This document shows, piece after piece, positions 2,289 to 20,141 of a stretch of 40,811 nt of DNA. Both the position numbers and the translations under genes were made by a program. The notes under the pieces are model-generated. The model was not told the origin of the DNA. It was given only the letters and a program-made list of their open reading frames with translations, and made no database searches. How positions within the stretch are numbered: the first letter of the stretch is position 1; each line of letters starts with the position of its first letter. Source of the DNA: a virus; the IMG/VR virus record IMGVR_UViG_3300027841_000030, positions 1-40,811 of that record. One strand, given 5' to 3'.

Positions 2289-2948
2289 TTATGCCTTAAG
2301 TCCGTAGAGTGTAAATTTGCCTGTTGATATATTACCAGAGGACATTAAAAATCTTATTCCGTCTATGGCACTATTAGATTGGTAAAACCCTGACCCTCGG
2401 ATAAATGAGGCTGTAGTGCTTGACGCAACAAAATCCATCTCGAAAGCACATGTCTTTGGATTAACTGTAGCCGATGGATTCATTAACCAAAAACGCACCC
2501 CTGACTCTTGTCCGGCTGTATTACCCATAGAGCCAAATATACCAGAATCAATTATATTCCACTGTGTAGCTGACGTAACCCTTCCAGCAACTGTTGATGC
2601 CCCAGTACCTTGTTGTGATAAACTATACAAAGCACTAGAACTAAAGCTAGAGGCTATAGATATACGTGCCTGAAACATAACGGTGTTTGTAGCAGGTAGT
2701 AATCCACTAATAGAAACAAAATAAGCTGCGTATGTGCTAGATAATCCTGTAAAATCTATAGTGGCTGAGCTAGACGCGGTCTGTGATGATATCTTAACCC
2801 AGTCGCCCGCATTTGTACAGTTACTCAAATCACCAGATGATGGTGTACCGAGGGCAGGGGTTACTAATGTGGGGCTTGTACTGCCCACAAAAGACCCTGT
2901 GCCTGTTGACCCGCTAAGGCCAACGTTTAAACTATTATTAGTTGCCAT
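2289..2948 (-). CDS. Short tail fibre, receptor-binding protein paralogue
   Basis: A 219-residue Ser/Thr/Gly-rich protein. Residues about 17-46 carry the phage fibre motif SFVGSTSPTLVTPALGTP followed by SGDLSNCT. The remainder (from [18 protein letters not shown]) is a beta-rich domain that recurs in the neighbouring 604-residue protein ([17 protein letters not shown] there) and ends with the same (F/Y)-x-SGNI-x-SG pattern. The two genes therefore share a duplicated adhesin module. It probably forms a trimeric fibre or tip on the virion that contacts the host surface. Confidence 0.7.
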   Translation of the reverse strand: MATNNSLNVGLSGSTGTGSFVGSTSPTLVTPALGTPSSGDLSNCTNAGDWVKISSQTASSSATIDFTGLSSTYAAYFVSISGLLPATNTVMFQARISIASSFSSSALYSLSQQGTGASTVAGRVTSATQWNIIDSGIFGSMGNTAGQESGVRFWLMNPSATVNPKTCAFEMDFVASSTTASFIRGSGFYQSNSAIDGIRFLMSSGNISTGKFTLYGLKA

Positions 2949-2962
2949 TTATTGTTGCCCTA

Positions 2963-4777
2963 TTATGTAACTGTAAATCCAGATGTAACCGCATTCAGCA
3001 TTGACCATGTTGTATTAGCTGTAATACATACAACCTCTATCGTGTCATATCTATTAGCACTTGCAGCTGCTCCGGCTGATGTTGTAGCCGTAGAGCCTAT
3101 ATTAATAGTTTGCCCTGTGTTAGCCGTTAATTTCCATCCACCAGCACCTTTCCCAGTAACAAAAACTCTATCGCCTAATGCTGCTGTAGCAGGGAGTGTA
3201 ACGTTAACTTGTGATGCATTGTTAGCAATATAATTATAATTAACTGCTGCGGCTTTAGTGGTTGCTGTAACCTCTTCAAATGTAATAGAGCCTGCGGGAC
3301 CACCTAAGTTGGTTTTGCTACGTCCATATGCATATATTACACCAGAGGCAATATTACCAGAGGCGAAATAAAAGCGTACAGCGTCAACATCAGCTGCAGA
3401 CATACGCAGCCCTGATGATGTGGTGCGTACTAGTGCAGCTGTAGCATTCATATAAACTAAGTCACCAGATATGTATTTGTACAGAGCAGAACCTTGGTTA
3501 TAAAGCTTAATCTCTCCACAAAGCATCTCTCCGGTGTCACTACCAACACCACTAGTTAATTGTATTTCAGTGGCTGAGGATGACCCGTTATTACTTAATG
3601 ATGTTGTTGGAGCAACAGTACCAGTGAAGGCATATTGATAAGATGCTGCCGCTGAATCATAAGTTGATCCATTGTCTGTTGACGTACGCATATAAAGACG
3701 GACGTTATCCGTAGCTGGTTTTAAATCTGTTATCACAAATATAATATCTGCATAATCAGTGAGGCCAGTGAAATCTAATGTAGCAGAGGAACTAGCTGTC
3801 TGTGACGATATGAATGTAAGAGCACCTACAGATGACCCGCCACCGCCACTAGGCGTTGCCCAAGTGCCATCACCTCTCCAATATGTGGAGCTAGAAGCTG
3901 ACGTACCACTGTTTAAGTTAGCTACTGCTAGGTTACCAGTTACACCAGTTGATAGGGGCAATCCTGTACAATTGGTTAATGTACCTGATGCGGGTGTACC
4001 TAAAACAGGCGCCACTAGTGTTAAAGCTGTACCGTTAGTGGTTGCTCCTGTAATACCAGCAAAAGAACCAGCATTATTATATTGCACTTCTGTGTCTGAA
4101 CCACCCGGACTACCTGAACCACCACCACCGCCCGAGCTTGTGGCACTCCATGATGCAGCACTAGTACCTGACGCTAGTACACATGTAACTGTAACTTTTG
4201 TTAATGTAGTTAAGCTATGCACTAAGTTACCGCCGGAGCTATTGATAGTTACAGTGCCAGTGCTGTTATTAACTAAATCAAAACTATGCCCAGTTGTTAA
4301 TGTGCTTGCAACAGGAAGAACCACTGTTTGGGTGGTTGAGCCTGTAAAAAATTGTTGTCTTGCGCTAGCCACTGTTAATGTTGTAGTGCCTGCAGCTGTT
4401 GCTGTAGTGGCATATCCATTTAACATATTGTTAGCTGAGAGGTTTAAATTACCGTCCCAATGAGCAGAGCTATTCTCTGTAGGGGTTGTTATAATAGCAT
4501 GGCTTGCAGCTGTCACTCTAAGTTCTACAGGTGTACCACTCACCCACGCAGCGGCAGATGTTCCTTCTTGTGCTCTAACAACTGTTAGGCTTGTACCTGA
4601 CCGAGCCGTAACTTTAACAATCTCTGTTGTATATCCTGAGCCTAGAGTTAAATAATAATACTCACCAGCTGCTAATGTGGGCAGTCTTGTTGCACTATTA
4701 ACAACAATGGTTGTTGCTCCTATAGCAATATCACCATTTAGCGAGCTAGCATATTGATTGACATATATTCTACCCAT
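2963..4777 (-). CDS. Modular tail fibre protein
   Basis: A 604-residue low-complexity, Ala/Ser/Thr/Gly-rich protein. In order: an amino-terminal virion-attachment type region ([15 protein letters not shown], residues 1-90), beta-rich shaft segments, a [11 protein letters not shown] linker near residue 215, the fibre motif [12 protein letters not shown] with TLTNCTGLP (about 250-275), a second glycine linker, the adhesin module shared with the next gene (about 325-490), and a C-terminal domain with [17 protein letters not shown]. The arrangement is typical of siphovirus fibres with exchangeable modules. Host receptor unknown. Confidence 0.75.
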
Positions 4778-15497: not shown

Positions 15498-16124
15498 TTA
15501 TTCTTCCATTGATGATTTTGCCGCTGCAAGTATCGCATCCCACTGTTCCTGAGTCATACCCTGCTTAAACAATGTTTTTCTTAAATTATCGGCTAAAGCC
15601 TTCTCGTTTATAGCTGCTTTAACAGCTAATTTCTGTAGCTTATATGGGCGTTTATCCTTGAAGAATTCTGTTAGATTGCTAAATATATTAGCAACAACAG
15701 GAGCACCCACTTGTATACCCCAAACAGTGAACATAATGGTTACAATGCTGGAAACATACCACTCAGGCATTGAGCCTAAGTTTTCAAACAATATTTTAGC
15801 GTAGCTTGGAGCTACAACACCTAAAGCAAAAGGACAAAACCAAACGCAGAAAGTGAAATATTTAAAATAACTTCCGGTGCTTTCAACAATAGTTTTATTT
15901 AATTCAAATTGAGCTTTAGCTGCCTCAGATGCATATTGCATTTGCTTATTCTGAACTTCGAGTTGGTAGTCAAGTTTCTTAACTTCCATCTCTTGTTTTT
16001 TCTTGTAGTAGTCGCCAATAAGTCCGGGCAAATTTCCTAACAAGCCAAATAACAAAGTCCAAGGCACAATATTTCCCACAAAGAGAAGGCACTTAAAAAC
16101 AACAAGGAGGGGATATTCTAACAC
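15498..16124 (-). CDS. Holin-like membrane protein (three membrane segments)
   Basis: A 208-residue protein with a hydrophobic amino segment (residues 4-34), a charged helix (YYKKKQEMEVKKLDYQLEVQ), then two further membrane segments at about 87-110 and 124-145. The end is amphipathic (MTQEQWDAILAAAKSSMEE). This matches the 3-TM holin group (GTA holin type). It is the first gene of the late operon. No ATG is available: the frame begins at a GTG at 16124 without a clear ribosome-binding site, so the exact start is uncertain. Confidence 0.65.
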   Translation of the reverse strand: MLEYPLLVVFKCLLFVGNIVPWTLLFGLLGNLPGLIGDYYKKKQEMEVKKLDYQLEVQNKQMQYASEAAKAQFELNKTIVESTGSYFKYFTFCVWFCPFALGVVAPSYAKILFENLGSMPEWYVSSIVTIMFTVWGIQVGAPVVANIFSNLTEFFKDKRPYKLQKLAVKAAINEKALADNLRKTLFKQGMTQEQWDAILAAAKSSMEE

Positions 16125-16168
16125 AAGCGGTTGAGTAATATCTGTTGCTAAGTGCCTATTAATTCAAC

Positions 16169-16186
16169 GGGCAATATTTCTTGCCC
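16169..16186 (-). promoter_or_regulatory. 5' leader hairpin of the late transcript
   Basis: A perfect 6-bp inverted repeat GGGCAA / TTGCCC with a six-base loop. It lies within a few bases of the predicted start of the leftward transcript, so it would cap the late mRNA and could protect its 5' end. Confidence 0.5.
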
Positions 16187-16195
16187 TATATATTA

Positions 16196-16224
16196 ATTAT
16201 ATCATCATACAACATGTATGTCAA
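16196..16224 (-). promoter_or_regulatory. Late-operon sigma-70 promoter, perfect consensus
   Basis: Read leftward, TTGACA (16224-16219) and TATAAT (16201-16196) are separated by exactly 17 bases. Both hexamers are perfect. Transcription should begin near 16189 and run into the holin, terminase and structural genes. No UP element or operator palindrome overlaps it directly, but ACAAT/ATTGT palindromes lie just upstream. Confidence 0.85.
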
Positions 16225-16264
16225 TAGCTAAAAGCTAATTAAATCACAATATGTATTAATATTT

Positions 16265-16285
16265 ACAATATTGTTACAATTGTAA
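16265..16285. promoter_or_regulatory. Paired ACAAT/ATTGT palindromes, candidate operators
   Basis: ACAATATTGT (16265-16274) abuts the 12-bp perfect palindrome TTACAATTGTAA (16274-16285). They lie between the leftward late promoter and the rightward promoter at 16357. The core ACAATTGT recurs twice around the promoter at 19313-19341. This suggests a shared DNA-binding regulator, which I could not identify in the window. Confidence 0.45.
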
Positions 16286-16356
16286 TTTAATATAATACTA
16301 ACAATAATTTACATAGTGTTTCAATGCAACAGAAGCCCCGAAAGCGTATGTTGCTA

Positions 16357-16385
16357 TTGACAACACGTTTTTATTATGCTATTTT
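16357..16385 (+). promoter_or_regulatory. Rightward sigma-70 promoter with extended -10
   Basis: TTGACA (16357-16362), a 17-base spacer, then TATTTT (16380-16385) preceded by TG at -15/-14 (TGC-TATTTT). The transcript would start near 16392, at the edge of the A+T tract, and read through the paired hairpins at 16595-16669. Confidence 0.65.
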
Positions 16386-16594
16386 AGTAATACTAGTACT
16401 AGTACTATAGTACTAAGTACTAAGTAATAATATATATATTATTAAATATATATATATTATTACGTATATAATATATAATATATTATTATAAATATATTAT
16501 ATATTAGTACTAAGTATTAGTAATATTATATTTATTAATAATATAATATTACGTATACAATATATTTTTATTTAAGTAAAAATATATTAATATT
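16386..16594. other. A+T tract with palindromes, candidate replication origin
   Basis: About 209 bases with almost no G or C apart from short AGTACT-type steps. It contains tandem TAGTACTA units (16386-16425), a perfect 11-bp inverted repeat (16521-16531 / 16541-16551), and the direct repeat ATTACGTATA at 16459-16468 and 16548-16557. It sits between divergent transcription units, as expected for an easily melted origin. No gene is visible from 16225 to 17180. Origin function is inference. Confidence 0.45.
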
Positions 16595-16632
16595 ATGTGT
16601 AATACACAAATAAGCTACAGTGTATTACACAT
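16595..16632. repeat. 13-bp inverted repeat with AAATAAGCT loop (hairpin 1)
   Basis: Perfect arms ATGTGTAATACAC and GTGTATTACACAT flank a 12-base loop beginning AAATAAGCT. Each arm is itself nearly palindromic (GTGTAATACAC, GTGTATTACAC) with centres 23 bases apart, so it could also be a pair of operator sites. The loop sequence is repeated in the next hairpin. Confidence 0.6.
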
Positions 16633-16637
16633 GTACA

Positions 16638-16669
16638 ATGCTTCCGGCAAATAAGCTTCCCGGAAGCAT
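16638..16669. repeat. 10-bp inverted repeat with the same loop (hairpin 2)
   Basis: Perfect arms ATGCTTCCGG and CCGGAAGCAT around a 12-base loop CAAATAAGCTTC. The arms are unrelated to hairpin 1, yet CAAATAAGCT is identical in both (16607-16616 and 16648-16657). There is no T-run after it, so it is not a simple terminator. Confidence 0.6.
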
Positions 16670-16765
16670 ATATTACGCCATTTATTATTATTTAATAAAT
16701 GTTGTCCTAGAAATGCTATTATAAATCTTGTTAAAGGCACTAAATTTGCTCTCTACGAGGTTTTT

Positions 16766-16819
16766 ACCCTCTTGCCTATGCAAGGGTAGCTTAAAAGTAT
16801 TTGCGTGTCTTGTACACGC
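16766..16819. repeat. Two small hairpins upstream of the early promoter
   Basis: The first has the stem CTTGC-CTAT-GCAAG (16771-16784), extended by ACC/GGT. The second, at 16803-16819, has the perfect arms GCGTGT and ACACGC around CTTGT. A small palindrome CTTAAATTAAG follows. None is followed by a T-run. The role is unknown: they could be processing or terminator-like elements of transcripts arriving from the left. Confidence 0.4.
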
Positions 16820-16863
16820 CTTAAATTAAGCCTAAATATTTTTAATTTATTTTCATTATTTCC

Positions 16864-16891
16864 TTGCTTTTTTCTGCACATGTGTTATACT
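16864..16891 (+). promoter_or_regulatory. Early promoter for the structured RNA and small genes
   Basis: TTGCTT (16864-16869), a 16-base spacer and TATACT (16886-16891) preceded by TG at the extended -10 position (TGT-TATACT). The predicted start is near 16898, immediately before the first helix of the structured region at 16901. It probably drives the RNA and the genes from 17181 onward. Confidence 0.7.
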
Positions 16892-16900
16892 TGAAAGTAA

Positions 16901-17160
16901 GAGGCTAGGAATAGACCCTCCAGTCTGATAACTAGCCGGATGTGCCATGGCAGATGGCCGAAAATCTGCAAGACAAAGTATTTTCATGAACTCAGTGGTG
17001 GCGCTGAGGTCGAAAGAGCCACAACACACATATTCATCTAGGTTGAAATGCCTAGAAAGACACCAGCCAGGCCTAGACGTCTTTAACAAGACGTGAGCAT
17101 CTAATATGGGCTGGACGGCAAGCCATGAGTCGTTAATGACGGGCTGATCACCCGAATGGC
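16901..17160 (+). ncRNA. Candidate structured RNA of about 260 nt
   Basis: This stretch is visibly richer in G+C than its A+T flanks, begins right after a promoter, and has no credible reading frame. Possible helices, all seen directly: GGCUAG 16903-16908 with 16932-16937, enclosing AGAC/GUCU; GCAGAU 16950 with AUCUGC 16964; CUCAG 16991 with CUGAG 17004; a GAAA-capped stem at 17008-17020; UCUAGG 17037 with CCUAGA 17051; CCAGCC 17063 with GGCUGG 17109, enclosing the 7-bp ACGUCUU/AAGACGU stem at 17077; and a three-way junction closed by GCCAU 17122 / AUGGC 17156. I do not recognise a known riboswitch, ribozyme or tRNA. It ends just before the ribosome-binding site of the next gene, so it could be a leader or a free RNA. 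Confidence 0.6.
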
Positions 17161-17180
17161 ACTTACTAAAGGAGAACAAA

Positions 17181-17525
17181 ATGAAAGATTTTCATAGCTG
17201 GGTGGCTGATATGCAAAACAGTATAGAGGACAAGAGCGAATTTATTAAGCCTAGTAGCCCCGTAAATGAGCAAAAACCGCTCTCTGTGTTACAAAAACGC
17301 CTTCTCCTTGCTGATGCGTTAGTTCCAGAGAACAAAACACTGTTAGATGTTATTAGGTGGGTTGGGATATTTTGCGTATCAGCTGATGGAGACAATATTT
17401 ACCCGGGTGTTTATGATGTGCTAGGCGACGGAAGTGAGTTGCTGGTGGACTATCAACGAGCAAGAACACTAGAAGCACACATAAAAGTTAGGGAAAAAAT
17501 AACACAGTGGGCTAAGAATTCCTAA
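17181..17525 (+). CDS. Early hypothetical protein
   Basis: A 114-residue protein with no recognised family, preceded by AAAGGAGAACAAA. It has an acidic, polar amino third (ending near the SSPVNEQKP segment), a helical middle (LQKRLLLADALVPENKTLLD), a short aromatic stretch VIRWVGIFCVSADGDNIYPG and a basic C-terminus. It is the first gene after the structured RNA and so probably acts early. No function can be proposed. Confidence 0.7.
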   Translation: MKDFHSWVADMQNSIEDKSEFIKPSSPVNEQKPLSVLQKRLLLADALVPENKTLLDVIRWVGIFCVSADGDNIYPGVYDVLGDGSELLVDYQRARTLEAHIKVREKITQWAKNS

Positions 17526-17536
17526 AGGAGACTACA

Positions 17537-17803
17537 ATGGCTAGAATGATGTTTGACGAGAGAGAAAAATATACAGAACATTGGGAAATAGCTATAAATA
17601 ATTCAAATAACACATTTACAATAACACATAATAAAGCCCCTCACATAGATGGATATGACAGAATTCAGATTTTATCCTTAGAGAATAAAATAAATATTAT
17701 TGTACATACACTAAAAAGACTTGACAGCATATTTACACAAGCAGAACAGCTTATTTGCCCTATTATGAGGGGAAAAATAGCCTTAGAATTAGGGAATATT
17801 TAA
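17537..17803 (+). CDS. Early hypothetical protein
   Basis: An 88-residue protein with AAAGGAG at good distance from the ATG. A mixed amino half (EHWEIAINNSNNTFTITHN) looks beta-rich and the second half (IVHTLKRLDSIFTQAEQLI) helical. It lies 11 bases after the previous gene in the same unit. No family recognised. Confidence 0.65.
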   Translation: MARMMFDEREKYTEHWEIAINNSNNTFTITHNKAPHIDGYDRIQILSLENKINIIVHTLKRLDSIFTQAEQLICPIMRGKIALELGNI

Positions 17804-17821
17804 ATAAAATACCTTCTGCTA

Positions 17822-17837
17822 CCGTCATTTGTGACGG
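17822..17837 (+). promoter_or_regulatory. Intercistronic hairpin
   Basis: Perfect 6-bp arms CCGTCA / TGACGG around TTTG in the 62-base gap between two early genes. No T-run follows. A message-processing or stability element is the likeliest role. Confidence 0.4.
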
Positions 17838-17865
17838 CACCAAAATTATAGCATTGGAGAAAAAT

Positions 17866-18138
17866 ATGAATAAGGAACAAAAAGAGAAAATAAGAGACTT
17901 AGCTATTAAGACAATAAAGCTTTGTCATGGCTTTGAAGACGAAATGTTTATACAAGACATTACAGAAATATATGAAGGATTTATTATAGGAATTAACAAT
18001 AACTGGGAAGAATATTTAACAAGAGAAACAAATGACGCTCTAATTGCTGACAGAACTAGTTGCCCTACGTGTGGAACACAAGTGTTTATAGAACGTACAA
18101 GAACAACAATATACACAGATGTTATGGATGATAATTAA
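17866..18138 (+). CDS. Early hypothetical protein with a CPTC motif
   Basis: A 90-residue protein. The frame is open from 17755, but the ATG at 17866 is chosen because it has GGAG at eight bases and does not overlap the previous gene. Residues 1-60 are helical and acidic (GFEDEMFIQDITEIYEGF). The end carries SCPTCGTQVFIERTRT, a single Cys-x-x-Cys that could be half of a zinc site. No family recognised. Confidence 0.65.
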   Translation: MNKEQKEKIRDLAIKTIKLCHGFEDEMFIQDITEIYEGFIIGINNNWEEYLTRETNDALIADRTSCPTCGTQVFIERTRTTIYTDVMDDN

Positions 18139-18157
18139 CAATACAATACAATATGAT

Positions 18158-18206
18158 GCGGGGATTCTTAAGCGTAAGAGAATAATATAGCTATCCCCGC
18201 GGCTTT
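18158..18206 (+). terminator. Two-part hairpin, probable terminator of the first early unit
   Basis: Outer arms GCGGGGAT (18158-18165) and ATCCCCGC (18193-18200) are perfect. Inside is a small stem TCTTA-AGCG-TAAGA, and GGCTTTTA follows. The short T-run makes it a moderate terminator. The nested inner stem is unusual and could also mark a small RNA end. Confidence 0.5.
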
Positions 18207-18234
18207 TACATAACCCATTACATATCAGATAGTT

Positions 18235-18408
18235 ATGAAACATATATATGCAATAATATTTCTTATATGTTACAATGTGGCTATAGAAATTAGTAGGTTT
18301 GACCAACCAGAAAATTTCTACATAAAAGAAATAAAAGTGAAGAAAATAGAAGGCTACTCTTATTTAAGGAGCTTAAACAAATGTATTCATTTAAGAAGTG
18401 GTGGCTAA
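18235..18408 (+). CDS. Possible small membrane peptide (doubtful)
   Basis: A 57-residue frame beginning MKHIYAIIFLICYNVAIEIS, which looks like a signal or membrane segment, then a basic part. It has no clear ribosome-binding site and overlaps the well-supported gene at 18381 by 28 bases in another frame. It is listed because the hydrophobic start is notable. It may well not be translated. Confidence 0.25.
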   Translation: MKHIYAIIFLICYNVAIEISRFDQPENFYIKEIKVKKIEGYSYLRSLNKCIHLRSGG

Positions 18409-18644
18409 ATAAGAATGATTATCAATTAATTAAAGGCTGGTGGGTTAATTACACACAGCTTTTGGCTGTTCAAGACAAGACAATAAAGACTAGCTTTCTT
18501 AAATTCCATTACAAAAAGCTTAATGTAACACCCTTCGGGAGTTGGAAATTCATAGCAACACATAAATTAAACAATGATGTATTAGACACACTACGCTGGG
18601 AATTTTTACAACCAAAACTTATAGAAAGGAAAACCAATGGATGA
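18381..18644 (+). CDS. Early hypothetical protein next to the antitoxin-like gene
   Basis: An 87-residue basic, Trp-rich protein (KKWWLNKND, KGWWVNY, FGSWKFIATHK, LRWEFLQPK) with TAAGGAG before its ATG. It overlaps the following antitoxin-like gene by eight bases, so the two are coupled. It shows no RES-domain residues, so it is not an obvious toxin partner. No family recognised. Confidence 0.65.
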   Translation: MYSFKKWWLNKNDYQLIKGWWVNYTQLLAVQDKTIKTSFLKFHYKKLNVTPFGSWKFIATHKLNNDVLDTLRWEFLQPKLIERKTNG

Positions 18645-18819
18645 ATTCATAAATGGTAGTGAACAAATATGTGCTCTATTGTACAATAAATTTGGGGGAA
18701 TTAAGCTGTTAGCCTACACATGGCTCTACACTAATAACCCTCAGCTTAATAACTATCCCCCTATAGCTTTAATACGTCTCGGAAAATTAGAGCACGTAAA
18801 GGCTCTTCTTTCCTCATAA
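18637..18819 (+). CDS. Stand-alone MbcA/ParS/Xre toxin-binding domain (antitoxin mimic)
   Basis: A 60-residue protein that is almost exactly the DUF2384 antitoxin toxin-binding domain. It reads CALLYNKFGG, then LLAYTWLYTNNPQLNNYPPI and GKLEHVKALLSS, matching the family's F-G ... W-L ... N-P-x-L ... P-x-x-L ... G-x-x-x-x-V-x-x-L-L pattern. Family antitoxins normally carry an amino-terminal helix-turn-helix and pair with RES-domain NAD-degrading toxins. Here the DNA-binding part and the toxin are both absent. It starts within the end of the previous gene, with GAAAGGA as ribosome-binding site. The likely role, neutralising a host toxin early in infection, is inference. Confidence 0.7.
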   Translation: MDEFINGSEQICALLYNKFGGIKLLAYTWLYTNNPQLNNYPPIALIRLGKLEHVKALLSS

Positions 18820-18832
18820 TTCCTTAGCGTGG

Positions 18833-18916
18833 CGTATTGAAGACGCAGTCAAAATAGCCTAAGCTTCGTATTCCATGGCTTATAATAGCCTGGAATTCTC
18901 TTAATATTTCCTTAAG
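18833..18916. repeat. Hairpins after the antitoxin-like gene
   Basis: GCGT/ACGC (18833-18847) is followed by a larger stem: ATTCCA-T-GGCT (18870-18880), loop TATAAT, AGCC-TGGAAT (18887-18896). Ten pairs form with one bulge. Just after it CTTAA/TTAAG precedes a T-rich stretch CTTTCTTTTATT, which may end the transcript weakly. The gap from 18820 to 19372 contains no convincing gene. Confidence 0.4.
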
Positions 18917-18996
18917 CTTTCTTTTATTCCTTTGCCGTGAGGCTGTCGAGTCAACGCCCCTCCTCTACGCTTTGGGGGAGCTGCCCCCTATACATT

Positions 18997-19076
18997 ATTG
19001 GCACATTATATGCATTAGCATAATGTATGCCAATGTGTGTTGGCACGTGTCTTGCATTAGCAAGCTCTATGCCAAC
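18997..19076. repeat. Tandem pair of matched 38-nt hairpins
   Basis: Unit 1 (18997-19034) and unit 2 (19039-19076) have the same plan: a 7-bp outer stem (ATTGGCA/TGCCAAT and GTTGGCA/TGCCAAC), an internal loop, a 5-bp inner stem (TATGC/GCATA and CTTGC/GCAAG) and the same ATTA loop. Both are 38 bases and the period is 42. The outer first pair changes A-T to G-C, and the inner stems change on both sides, keeping the pairing. The fold seems conserved rather than the letters. A GGGGG/CCCCC hairpin lies just upstream (18974-18988). Confidence 0.65.
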
Positions 19077-19156
19077 TATATACGAACGGGAGAGAGGACT
19101 GGCCATGTGCAGCTCACACTCCTAGTGTTCCCCGCTTACATAGCCTATTAGTATAT

Positions 19157-19183
19157 GCACAAGCTACACTGGTACGCTTGTGC
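19157..19183. repeat. 8-bp inverted repeat with inner stem
   Basis: GCACAAGC (19157-19164) and GCTTGTGC (19176-19183) are perfect. Inside, TAC/GTA can extend the stem around ACTG. Another 9-bp repeat AACATACAT / ATGTATGTT follows (19187-19195, 19212-19220). It may be an operator or an RNA structure; there is no T-run. Confidence 0.4.
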
Positions 19184-19301
19184 GTAAACATACATACATT
19201 ATTTTCAATACATGTATGTTATTGCATTATTATGTATTTATTATTTCTTTTCTTCTATTCTTTTCTCTTCCTTATTTAATACATTCTTTACACTATTCTT
19301 A

Positions 19302-19341
19302 CACAATTGTTCTTGCTTACGCCCACAATTGTTCCTATAAT
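19302..19341 (+). promoter_or_regulatory. Promoter with two operator-like repeats
   Basis: TTGCTT (19313-19318), a 17-base spacer and TATAAT (19336-19341). Two copies of CACAATTGTTC (19302-19312 and 19324-19334) lie 22 bases apart, one just upstream of the -35 and one inside the spacer. Their ACAATTGT core is a palindrome, so a dimeric repressor could bind both and block the polymerase. It drives the three small genes from 19373. Confidence 0.65.
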
Positions 19342-19372
19342 ATAATTAAGAGAAGAATAAAGGAGAACACAA

Positions 19373-19552
19373 ATGAACATCAATAACACAACATATATTG
19401 TACATAACAACAATAATAGTGTTAAAAAAGAAACAAACAATAGAGAAGAAGCTAAGAAAATAGCTGTTCAACTAACCTTAGTGTTCGGCGAATTCTTCGC
19501 TATTGATGTAGATGTTAAGAAAGACTTATGGGCTTTAAACTATAACAGATAG
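19373..19552 (+). CDS. Small early protein
   Basis: A 59-residue Asn-rich protein (MNINNTTYIVHNNNNSVKKE) preceded by AAAGGAGAACACAA. Its second half is helical with LVFGEFFAIDVDV. It is the first gene after the operator-flanked promoter. No family recognised. Confidence 0.6.
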   Translation: MNINNTTYIVHNNNNSVKKETNNREEAKKIAVQLTLVFGEFFAIDVDVKKDLWALNYNR

Positions 19553-19562
19553 GAGAAACACA

Positions 19563-19703
19563 ATGAACGCATTATATACATTAGAAGATATTAAGACATT
19601 ATTTAAGATGTCAGGCGTAGCGGAGCTACATGTATACATCAGAGAGCACTTTGTATGTGCCTATGATGGTGAGCTTAACTTCTTAGGCTATAGGAGAATC
19701 TAG
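19563..19703 (+). CDS. Small early protein
   Basis: A 46-residue protein (MNALYTLEDIKTLFKMSGV, ending LNFLGYRRI) whose AGGAG overlaps the end of the previous gene. Good ribosome-binding site and tight spacing support it. No family recognised. Confidence 0.6.
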   Translation: MNALYTLEDIKTLFKMSGVAELHVYIREHFVCAYDGELNFLGYRRI

Positions 19704-19705
19704 AA

Positions 19706-19867
19706 ATGTATGAAGAATTATATGAACCAGAATATGAGGAAAGTCAAGACGAGCTTAGAGAAAGAATAAGACAGCTCGAGGAAGACTTAGAATGTTGTGA
19801 TGAATACATAGCTGAGCTAGAAGAGAAGCTTACAGCATTAGAGAGAATAACAGCATATTGGAGTTAA
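19706..19867 (+). CDS. Small acidic coiled-coil protein
   Basis: A 53-residue, strongly acidic protein. The start is Tyr/Glu-rich and residues 16-48 form a leucine-heptad coiled coil (RERIRQLEEDLECC, then AELEEKLTALER). It begins two bases after the previous stop, with AGGAG ten bases upstream. Very acidic small early proteins sometimes mimic DNA or bind host regulators; here this is only a possibility. Confidence 0.6.
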   Translation: MYEELYEPEYEESQDELRERIRQLEEDLECCDEYIAELEEKLTALERITAYWS

Positions 19868-19872
19868 TCCCC

Positions 19873-19932
19873 TATAAGGAGTAATTTGTAATTATCCCTT
19901 ATAATGCATAAAGCCCCTTAATTGGGGCTTTT
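19873..19932 (+). terminator. Tandem hairpins with terminator between converging units
   Basis: First is an AT-rich hairpin with TATAAGG (19873-19879) paired to CCTTATA (19897-19903) and a further inner stem TAATT/AATTA. Then comes a clear intrinsic terminator: AAAGCCCC (19910-19917), TTAATT loop, GGGGCTTTT (19924-19932). It ends the rightward early unit. Read leftward its U-run is weak. Confidence 0.75.
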
Positions 19933-19940
19933 CATTGTCT

Positions 19941-20141
19941 TTATTTCTTAGACCCAAACTCGTAAGTTAGCCAGTAGTTAAGCGGAAGTGTTGCTATTGT
20001 ATACACACTTCCTAGCAAGAATTGTCTTAGTGTTGGGATTTCATTCTGTATGATGTATATTGTAAAGAAGAACCCTGTTGCCCACCATAGCTTGCTTATT
20101 ATCATAAATGATAGTTTTGGATAGCGTTTAATTATGCTCAT
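19941..20141 (-). CDS. Small two-segment membrane protein
   Basis: A 66-residue protein with two membrane segments (about LSFMIISKLWWATGFFFTI and FLLGSVYTIATLPLNYWL). The ATG at 20141 is chosen over a GTG four codons upstream because AAGGTG lies seven bases before it. It is the last gene of the long leftward run. Candidates are superinfection exclusion or a holin-type accessory, without direct evidence. Confidence 0.6.
   Translation of the reverse strand: MSIIKRYPKLSFMIISKLWWATGFFFTIYIIQNEIPTLRQFLLGSVYTIATLPLNYWLTYEFGSKK

Follow-up and report, generated by a model that had tools for sequence, protein, structure and literature searches.

The window analyzed here is the whole virus record IMGVR_UViG_3300027841_000030, 40,811 bases long, which comes from a metagenomic phage. 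Its gene content (portal, terminase, PhoH-like protein, DnaB-like helicase, polymerase A and a sigma-like protein) is typical of tailed phages. Three IMG/VR contigs encode large terminases 75% identical to the one found here, and Raoultella phage RP180, like many Escherichia and Salmonella phages, has one that is about 40% identical. From position 16124 the structural genes are read leftward, and from 17181 the early genes are read rightward, up to a terminator-like site at 19910-19931. Between the two gene blocks lies a gene-free gap of 1056 bases (16125-17180), and the features of interest in this gap are collected in Table 1. The product of the first early gene (17181-17525) matched nothing in Pfam or PHROGs, and no tRNA was found in the window. 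The early operon itself (17181-19868) has a 554-nt gene-free gap. Note that this second gap contains, at 18998-19075, two head-to-tail hairpins of the form TTGGCA...ATTA...TGCCAA, which are 75% alike.

Table 1. Coordinates of the promoters, the predicted leader RNA, its helices and the first early gene in the window
Feature	Position	Strand	Details
Upstream promoter-like site	16357-16385	+	TTGACA-17-TATTTT with TG
Early promoter directly 5' of the RNA	16864-16891	+	weak -35 TTGCTT; extended -10 TGTTATACT at 16883-16891
Structured non-coding early leader RNA (predicted)	16898-17165	+	start position predicted by the -10 box; gene follows without a terminator
H1, 5'-terminal hairpin GGCUAG...CUAGCC, inner AGAC/GUCU, CCUCCA loop	16903-16937	+	pair probability 1.00 (outer), 0.85 (inner); z -2.6 (16898-16940); begins at about +5
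H2, hairpin GCAGAU/AUCUGC	16950-16969	+	z -2.8 (16949-16971)
H3, hairpin CUCAGUG/CGCUGAG	16990-17022	+	weaker; z -1.3 (16986-17026)
H4, hairpin UCUAGGU/GCCUAGA	17037-17056	+	pair probability 0.98; z -5.9 (17036-17058)
H5, double hairpin CCAGCC/GGCUGG, inner 7-bp ACGUCUU-UAAC-AAGACGU	17063-17114	+	pair probabilities 0.93, 0.91; z -2.8 (17062-17115)
P1, possible long-range closing helix GUGCCAU/AUGGCAC	16942-16948 / 17156-17162	+	7 bp; in the leader MFE
Alternative three-way junction GCCAU/AUGGC	17122-17160	+	competes with P1
First early gene	17181-17525	+	114 aa, MKDFHSWV...; homologues in L002, L006 and L007

The -10 box of the early promoter, TGTTATACTT, is identical in the related loci L002 and L007 and reads TATACT in L006 (the alignment also took in L012). 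This conservation suggests that the early promoter is more than a chance match, despite its weak -35, which is also the reason why a consensus promoter scan did not list it. The predicted start, at about 16898, is located about 7 bases past the conserved box, in agreement with an initial annotation of this DNA, which had the stretch begin at the predicted transcription start. From there the stretch extends to 17162, ending five bases 5' of the ribosome-binding site of the first early gene. Judged by its sequence, the stretch has the arrangement of a leader: a promoter before it, a ribosome-binding site after it and, in the terminator scan of the + strand, no terminator-like site between the RNA and the gene. 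Here and below, it is from such features that we infer the transcription of the stretch, its start site and its function.

As initially described, the stretch is richer in G+C than its surroundings: 0.485, compared to 0.383 for the record, a value equaled in just 132 of the 40,008 sliding windows (top 0.3%). It is also non-coding. The six frames of 16898-17165 scored -0.17 to -0.55 bits per codon; on the same scale, chunks of real genes have their 5th percentile at +0.13, and the small real genes lie between +0.06 and +0.17. The antisense strand contains a stop-free frame of 107 codons, which scores -0.24, and equally long frames occurred in 35 of 2000 shuffles. Thus, the codon statistics, the lack of any tblastn match in phages and the frequency in shuffles rule out a protein, sense or antisense, in place of the RNA. 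The claim that neither strand is coding was therefore upheld, and the protein reading frame considered as its alternative found no support.

The dense pairing reported for this stretch was also confirmed. The minimum free energy (MFE) is -87 kcal/mol (z -3.14), reached by 1 of 200 shuffles, and the 268-nt fold gave a z of -3.41 (200 shuffles); the MFE structure contains about ten helices, with six or more hairpins. In the control set of 300 other 268-nt windows of the record, the mean z was -0.69 (sd 1.43) and ten windows reached -3.41. Nine of these ten are located at 16081-16884, in the same intergenic region, or at 19029-20100. Moreover, when energy was regressed on G+C, the stretch ranked 20th of 314 windows. 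Thus, the folding is significant and the structure statistically real, yet it is neither the strongest in the record nor exceptional for this genome. Note that folding does not tell the strand, since the minus strand folds equally well (-87.0 on + and -87.3 on -); it is the promoter that does. Elsewhere in the record, resemblance to the RNA did not exceed chance level.

Five local hairpin units, H1 to H5, have fair to high pairing probability, and four of them (H1, H2, H4 and H5) clearly beat their own shuffles. In the predictions, the local hairpins alone are robust, including the 7-bp stem with a UAAC loop that had been pointed out before and that forms the inner part of H5. By contrast, P1 and the three-way junction are competing folds, no more than 1 kcal/mol apart: once the gene start is included, the two have -92.6 and -91.6 kcal/mol, and the fold in which the 3' strand is open has -91.3. 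These small differences, of about 1 kcal/mol, leave the global architecture undecided by prediction. The three-way junction of the initial annotation stands as an alternative fold only, and the 3' part of the leader, which contains it, is weak: 17115-17155, taken alone, does not beat its shuffles (z 0.1), and 17120-17162 has a z of -1.2. The GAAA-capped stem of that annotation can be drawn but is absent from the MFE.

In the predicted ensemble, the ribosome-binding site is mostly unpaired (0.50-0.95 per base) and the AUG is unpaired at 0.11-0.19. This AUG, with which the first early gene begins, falls within a 6-bp hairpin, AUGAAA-GAU-UUUCAU (17181-17195); as judged by eye, five of these pairs could form in L006, and neither L002 nor L007 retains the hairpin. 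A 12-codon mini-ORF, MPRKTPARPRRL, is located at 17048-17086, inside H4 and H5, with an AGG a few bases 5' of it, and may have arisen by chance. An H-type pseudoknot, GUGGC/GCCAC, was also drawn by eye at 16990-17022. It carries no weight: it did not come up under strict search criteria, and at least one pseudoknot was present in 65 of 1000 shuffles.

The scan of the window with the covariance models of Rfam 15 at the curated threshold gave no match, riboswitches, ribozymes, tmRNA, RNase P, 6S, GOLLD and ROOL included, as anticipated by the first reading of the sequence, in which no known pattern was recognized. A relaxed search (E up to 10) returned no riboswitch and a single chance match, of E 6.4, on the opposite strand. 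Searches for homologues of the RNA in phages, plasmids, E. coli, IMG/VR and GTDB genomes, which reach mainly close relatives, found none. The RNA as a blastn query gave no match in any phage record searched, and the 'distant' blastn search, with the RNA alone or with its flanks, gave no true match in phages, plasmids or E. coli genomes. The plasmid matches were 26-33 nt long with E 0.2-10, most of them within annotated genes, and were taken as chance. Pattern scans, which used the stop-free non-coding frames as queries and needed runs of near identity, matched 5 and 22 stretches in viral contigs and 155 and 57 in genome contigs, none of which was confirmed. Exact 16-/17-mers were shared with 24 loci in viral contigs, with little or no similarity past the word and no model match below E 0.8.

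Two covariance models were built from the single sequence, R1 (16903-17024) and R2 (17037-17162), one-sequence models being weak. An alignment of the terminase led to 46 loci, four of them on contigs already included, and the models were run on 48 loci plus the window. R2 found the window itself only, and R1 found the window plus five others, which at E 0.8-2.2 were considered chance matches. Over whole records, R2 matched 0 of 31. Given the limited reach of these searches, the null result means that there is no close relative in these collections, and a diverged family could be missed. In the literature on structured early leaders of phages, nothing was found on this RNA.

The three homologues of the first early gene (L002:1819-2175 on the minus strand, L006:4581-4778 and L007:5031-5393) make it possible to compare what is present in the same slot, whose contents were read by eye. 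In L002, a promoter is followed by a 40-codon ORF; in L006, by a 47-codon ORF overlapping the start of the gene; and in L007, by an unrelated 99-nt leader (z -4.05), the main hairpin of which ends just 5' of the ribosome-binding site. An RNA like 16898-17165 was present in 0 of these 3 loci. The initial annotation had proposed a possible new RNA class and the collection of homologues from related phages. None was obtained in the collections searched, and the three readable homologous loci carry unrelated sequence there; since a class needs members, the proposal is not yet supported. The kind assigned here is a structured leader RNA, which is claimed by no known family and is not shown to found one.

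Other structured stretches occur near this position in the related loci. In L002, a stretch of about 183 nt at the same junction (2374-2556, minus strand) is bounded by a consensus-like promoter and a T-run terminator (z -4.04), and is a possible separate early non-coding RNA. In L011, about 240 nt of non-coding sequence 5' of the structural genes (4530-4770; z -2.96) closes with a strong hairpin that resembles a terminator and has a T run, and in L012 a structured non-coding stretch is located near the same junction (4559-4745; z -2.06). These three were chosen by eye and post hoc, so they show occurrence and not frequency. When eight loci (L002, L006, L007 and L010-L014) were searched against Rfam, a tRNA in L013 was the single match. 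Note that L002 (2750-3230) and L004 (180-660) carry, between the structural and the early genes, a gene that is absent from the window and that, by eye, looks like a homing endonuclease.

Our preferred reading, held tentatively and with somewhat less than even confidence, is that the stretch forms, at the 5' end of the early mRNA, a structured leader specific to this lineage, which would act in cis on the stability of this mRNA or on how the first early gene is translated. The rightward early transcript would begin at about 16898, from a host-type promoter (about 16864-16891), and would carry a stable hairpin within about five bases of its 5' end, four or five more hairpins and then, without a terminator, the ribosome-binding site. 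The 5'-terminal hairpin and those behind it could shield the early mRNA from 5'-end-dependent decay, while the competing 3' pairings by the ribosome-binding site might set the translation of the first gene. The conserved -10 box, the lack of a terminator-like site ahead of the gene in the + strand scan, the pair probability of 1.00 for H1 at about +5, the non-coding character, the z of -3.1 to -3.4 and the mostly unpaired ribosome-binding site in the ensemble all speak for such a leader. The unrelated structured leader of L007, with the same promoter and gene, is what would be expected if a structured leader, and not its sequence, is what matters. Against this reading, 268 nt exceeds the need of a stabilizing leader, L002 and L006 have a short ORF instead of one, the fold is not strand-specific and the start-codon hairpin, by eye, is lost in L002 and L007.

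In bacteria and phages, structured 5' leaders such as those of the ompA type and of T4 gene 32 stabilize mRNAs. The stretch would share with them a hairpin a few bases from the 5' end and, as predicted here, co-transcription with the gene behind, but it is much longer and has multiple hairpins. If it is a leader, this is one more phage that invests in a structured early 5' UTR. Leader or not, the case illustrates what one sequence without homologues can and cannot support.

The strongest rival to the cis-acting leader, although unlikely in our view, is a trans-acting early effector RNA (a decoy, host-takeover or anti-defense RNA), which the early transcript would yield with or without processing and which would be located in a variable first-gene slot. 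The differing cargo of the slot among the relatives favors it, as does the promoter-to-terminator RNA of L002, which suggests that early non-coding RNAs may occur in this phage group. Moreover, long G+C-rich intergenic islands serve as a signal in searches for bacterial non-coding RNAs (PMC8632094). However, the stretch has no terminator-like site at its 3' end, no processing site is known, and no homologue was found that would show selection on the RNA. GOLLD and ROOL are also large structured non-coding phage RNAs; many GOLLD RNAs exceed 800 nt and both are often located near tRNA islands (PMC12286853), in contrast to the stretch, which has no tRNA in its window and no Rfam match. More doubtful still is a new family of early phage RNAs that act in trans, with this RNA as its first known member, and that are used for host takeover or counter-defense instead of a protein. 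The members of such a family would sit in the variable first slot of the early operon, filled in relatives by small protein genes or other structured RNAs. If the slot reading were right, phages of this group would exchange RNA and protein cargo at a single early site, and early effector RNAs could be sought there.

We also regard as improbable that the stretch is a functionless G+C-rich relic, or a recently acquired fragment, which folds by composition and chance. The rank after G+C correction, the ten background windows that reach its z and the lack of conservation anywhere searched are consistent with this explanation. On the other side are the sharp fit of the stretch between the promoter start and the ribosome-binding site, its place in the top 0.3% of the record for G+C and single hairpins with z as low as -5.9 (17037-17056).

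P4/P1 CI-type leader RNAs are short, processed RNAs that control termination. Like them, the stretch would be a non-coding RNA from the leader of an early phage operon; they are short and processed, however, and no Rfam family matches the stretch. Another explanation, to which we give little credence, is a put-like antiterminator, in which the nascent leader would bind RNA polymerase and suppress pausing and termination in the early operon. In HK022, putL is a structured RNA element directly 3' of an early promoter (PMC9378689), the position of the stretch here, and put acts by suppressing termination through the zinc-binding domain of the RNA polymerase beta' subunit. The strong hairpins at 18998-19075, in the gene-free gap of the early operon, would also fit. 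However, put has about 70 nt and two stem-loops (PMC9378689), while the stretch has about 265 nt and at least six, so that size and form differ, and L002 and L006 are without any such leader. Finally, a sensing leader (a riboswitch or a leader-peptide attenuator) that switches between the helix 16942/17156 and the junction 17122/17160 is very unlikely: both folds claim the same 3' strand at energies within 1 kcal/mol of each other and the mini-ORF has its upstream AGG, but no Rfam riboswitch matched even at the relaxed threshold, the ribosome-binding site is open in both predicted states, and competing pairings of such size are expected by chance.

The upstream part of the intergenic region has features of its own. 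At 16357-16600, the good promoter-like site of Table 1 precedes a stretch of about 200 bases in which G+C is very low (about 13%) and TAGTACTAAGTACTA-like palindromes occur, and this segment is among the strongest folding signals of the record. By eye, a promoter resembling this one is also present in L002 and L004. The segment is possibly a transcription-primed replication origin.
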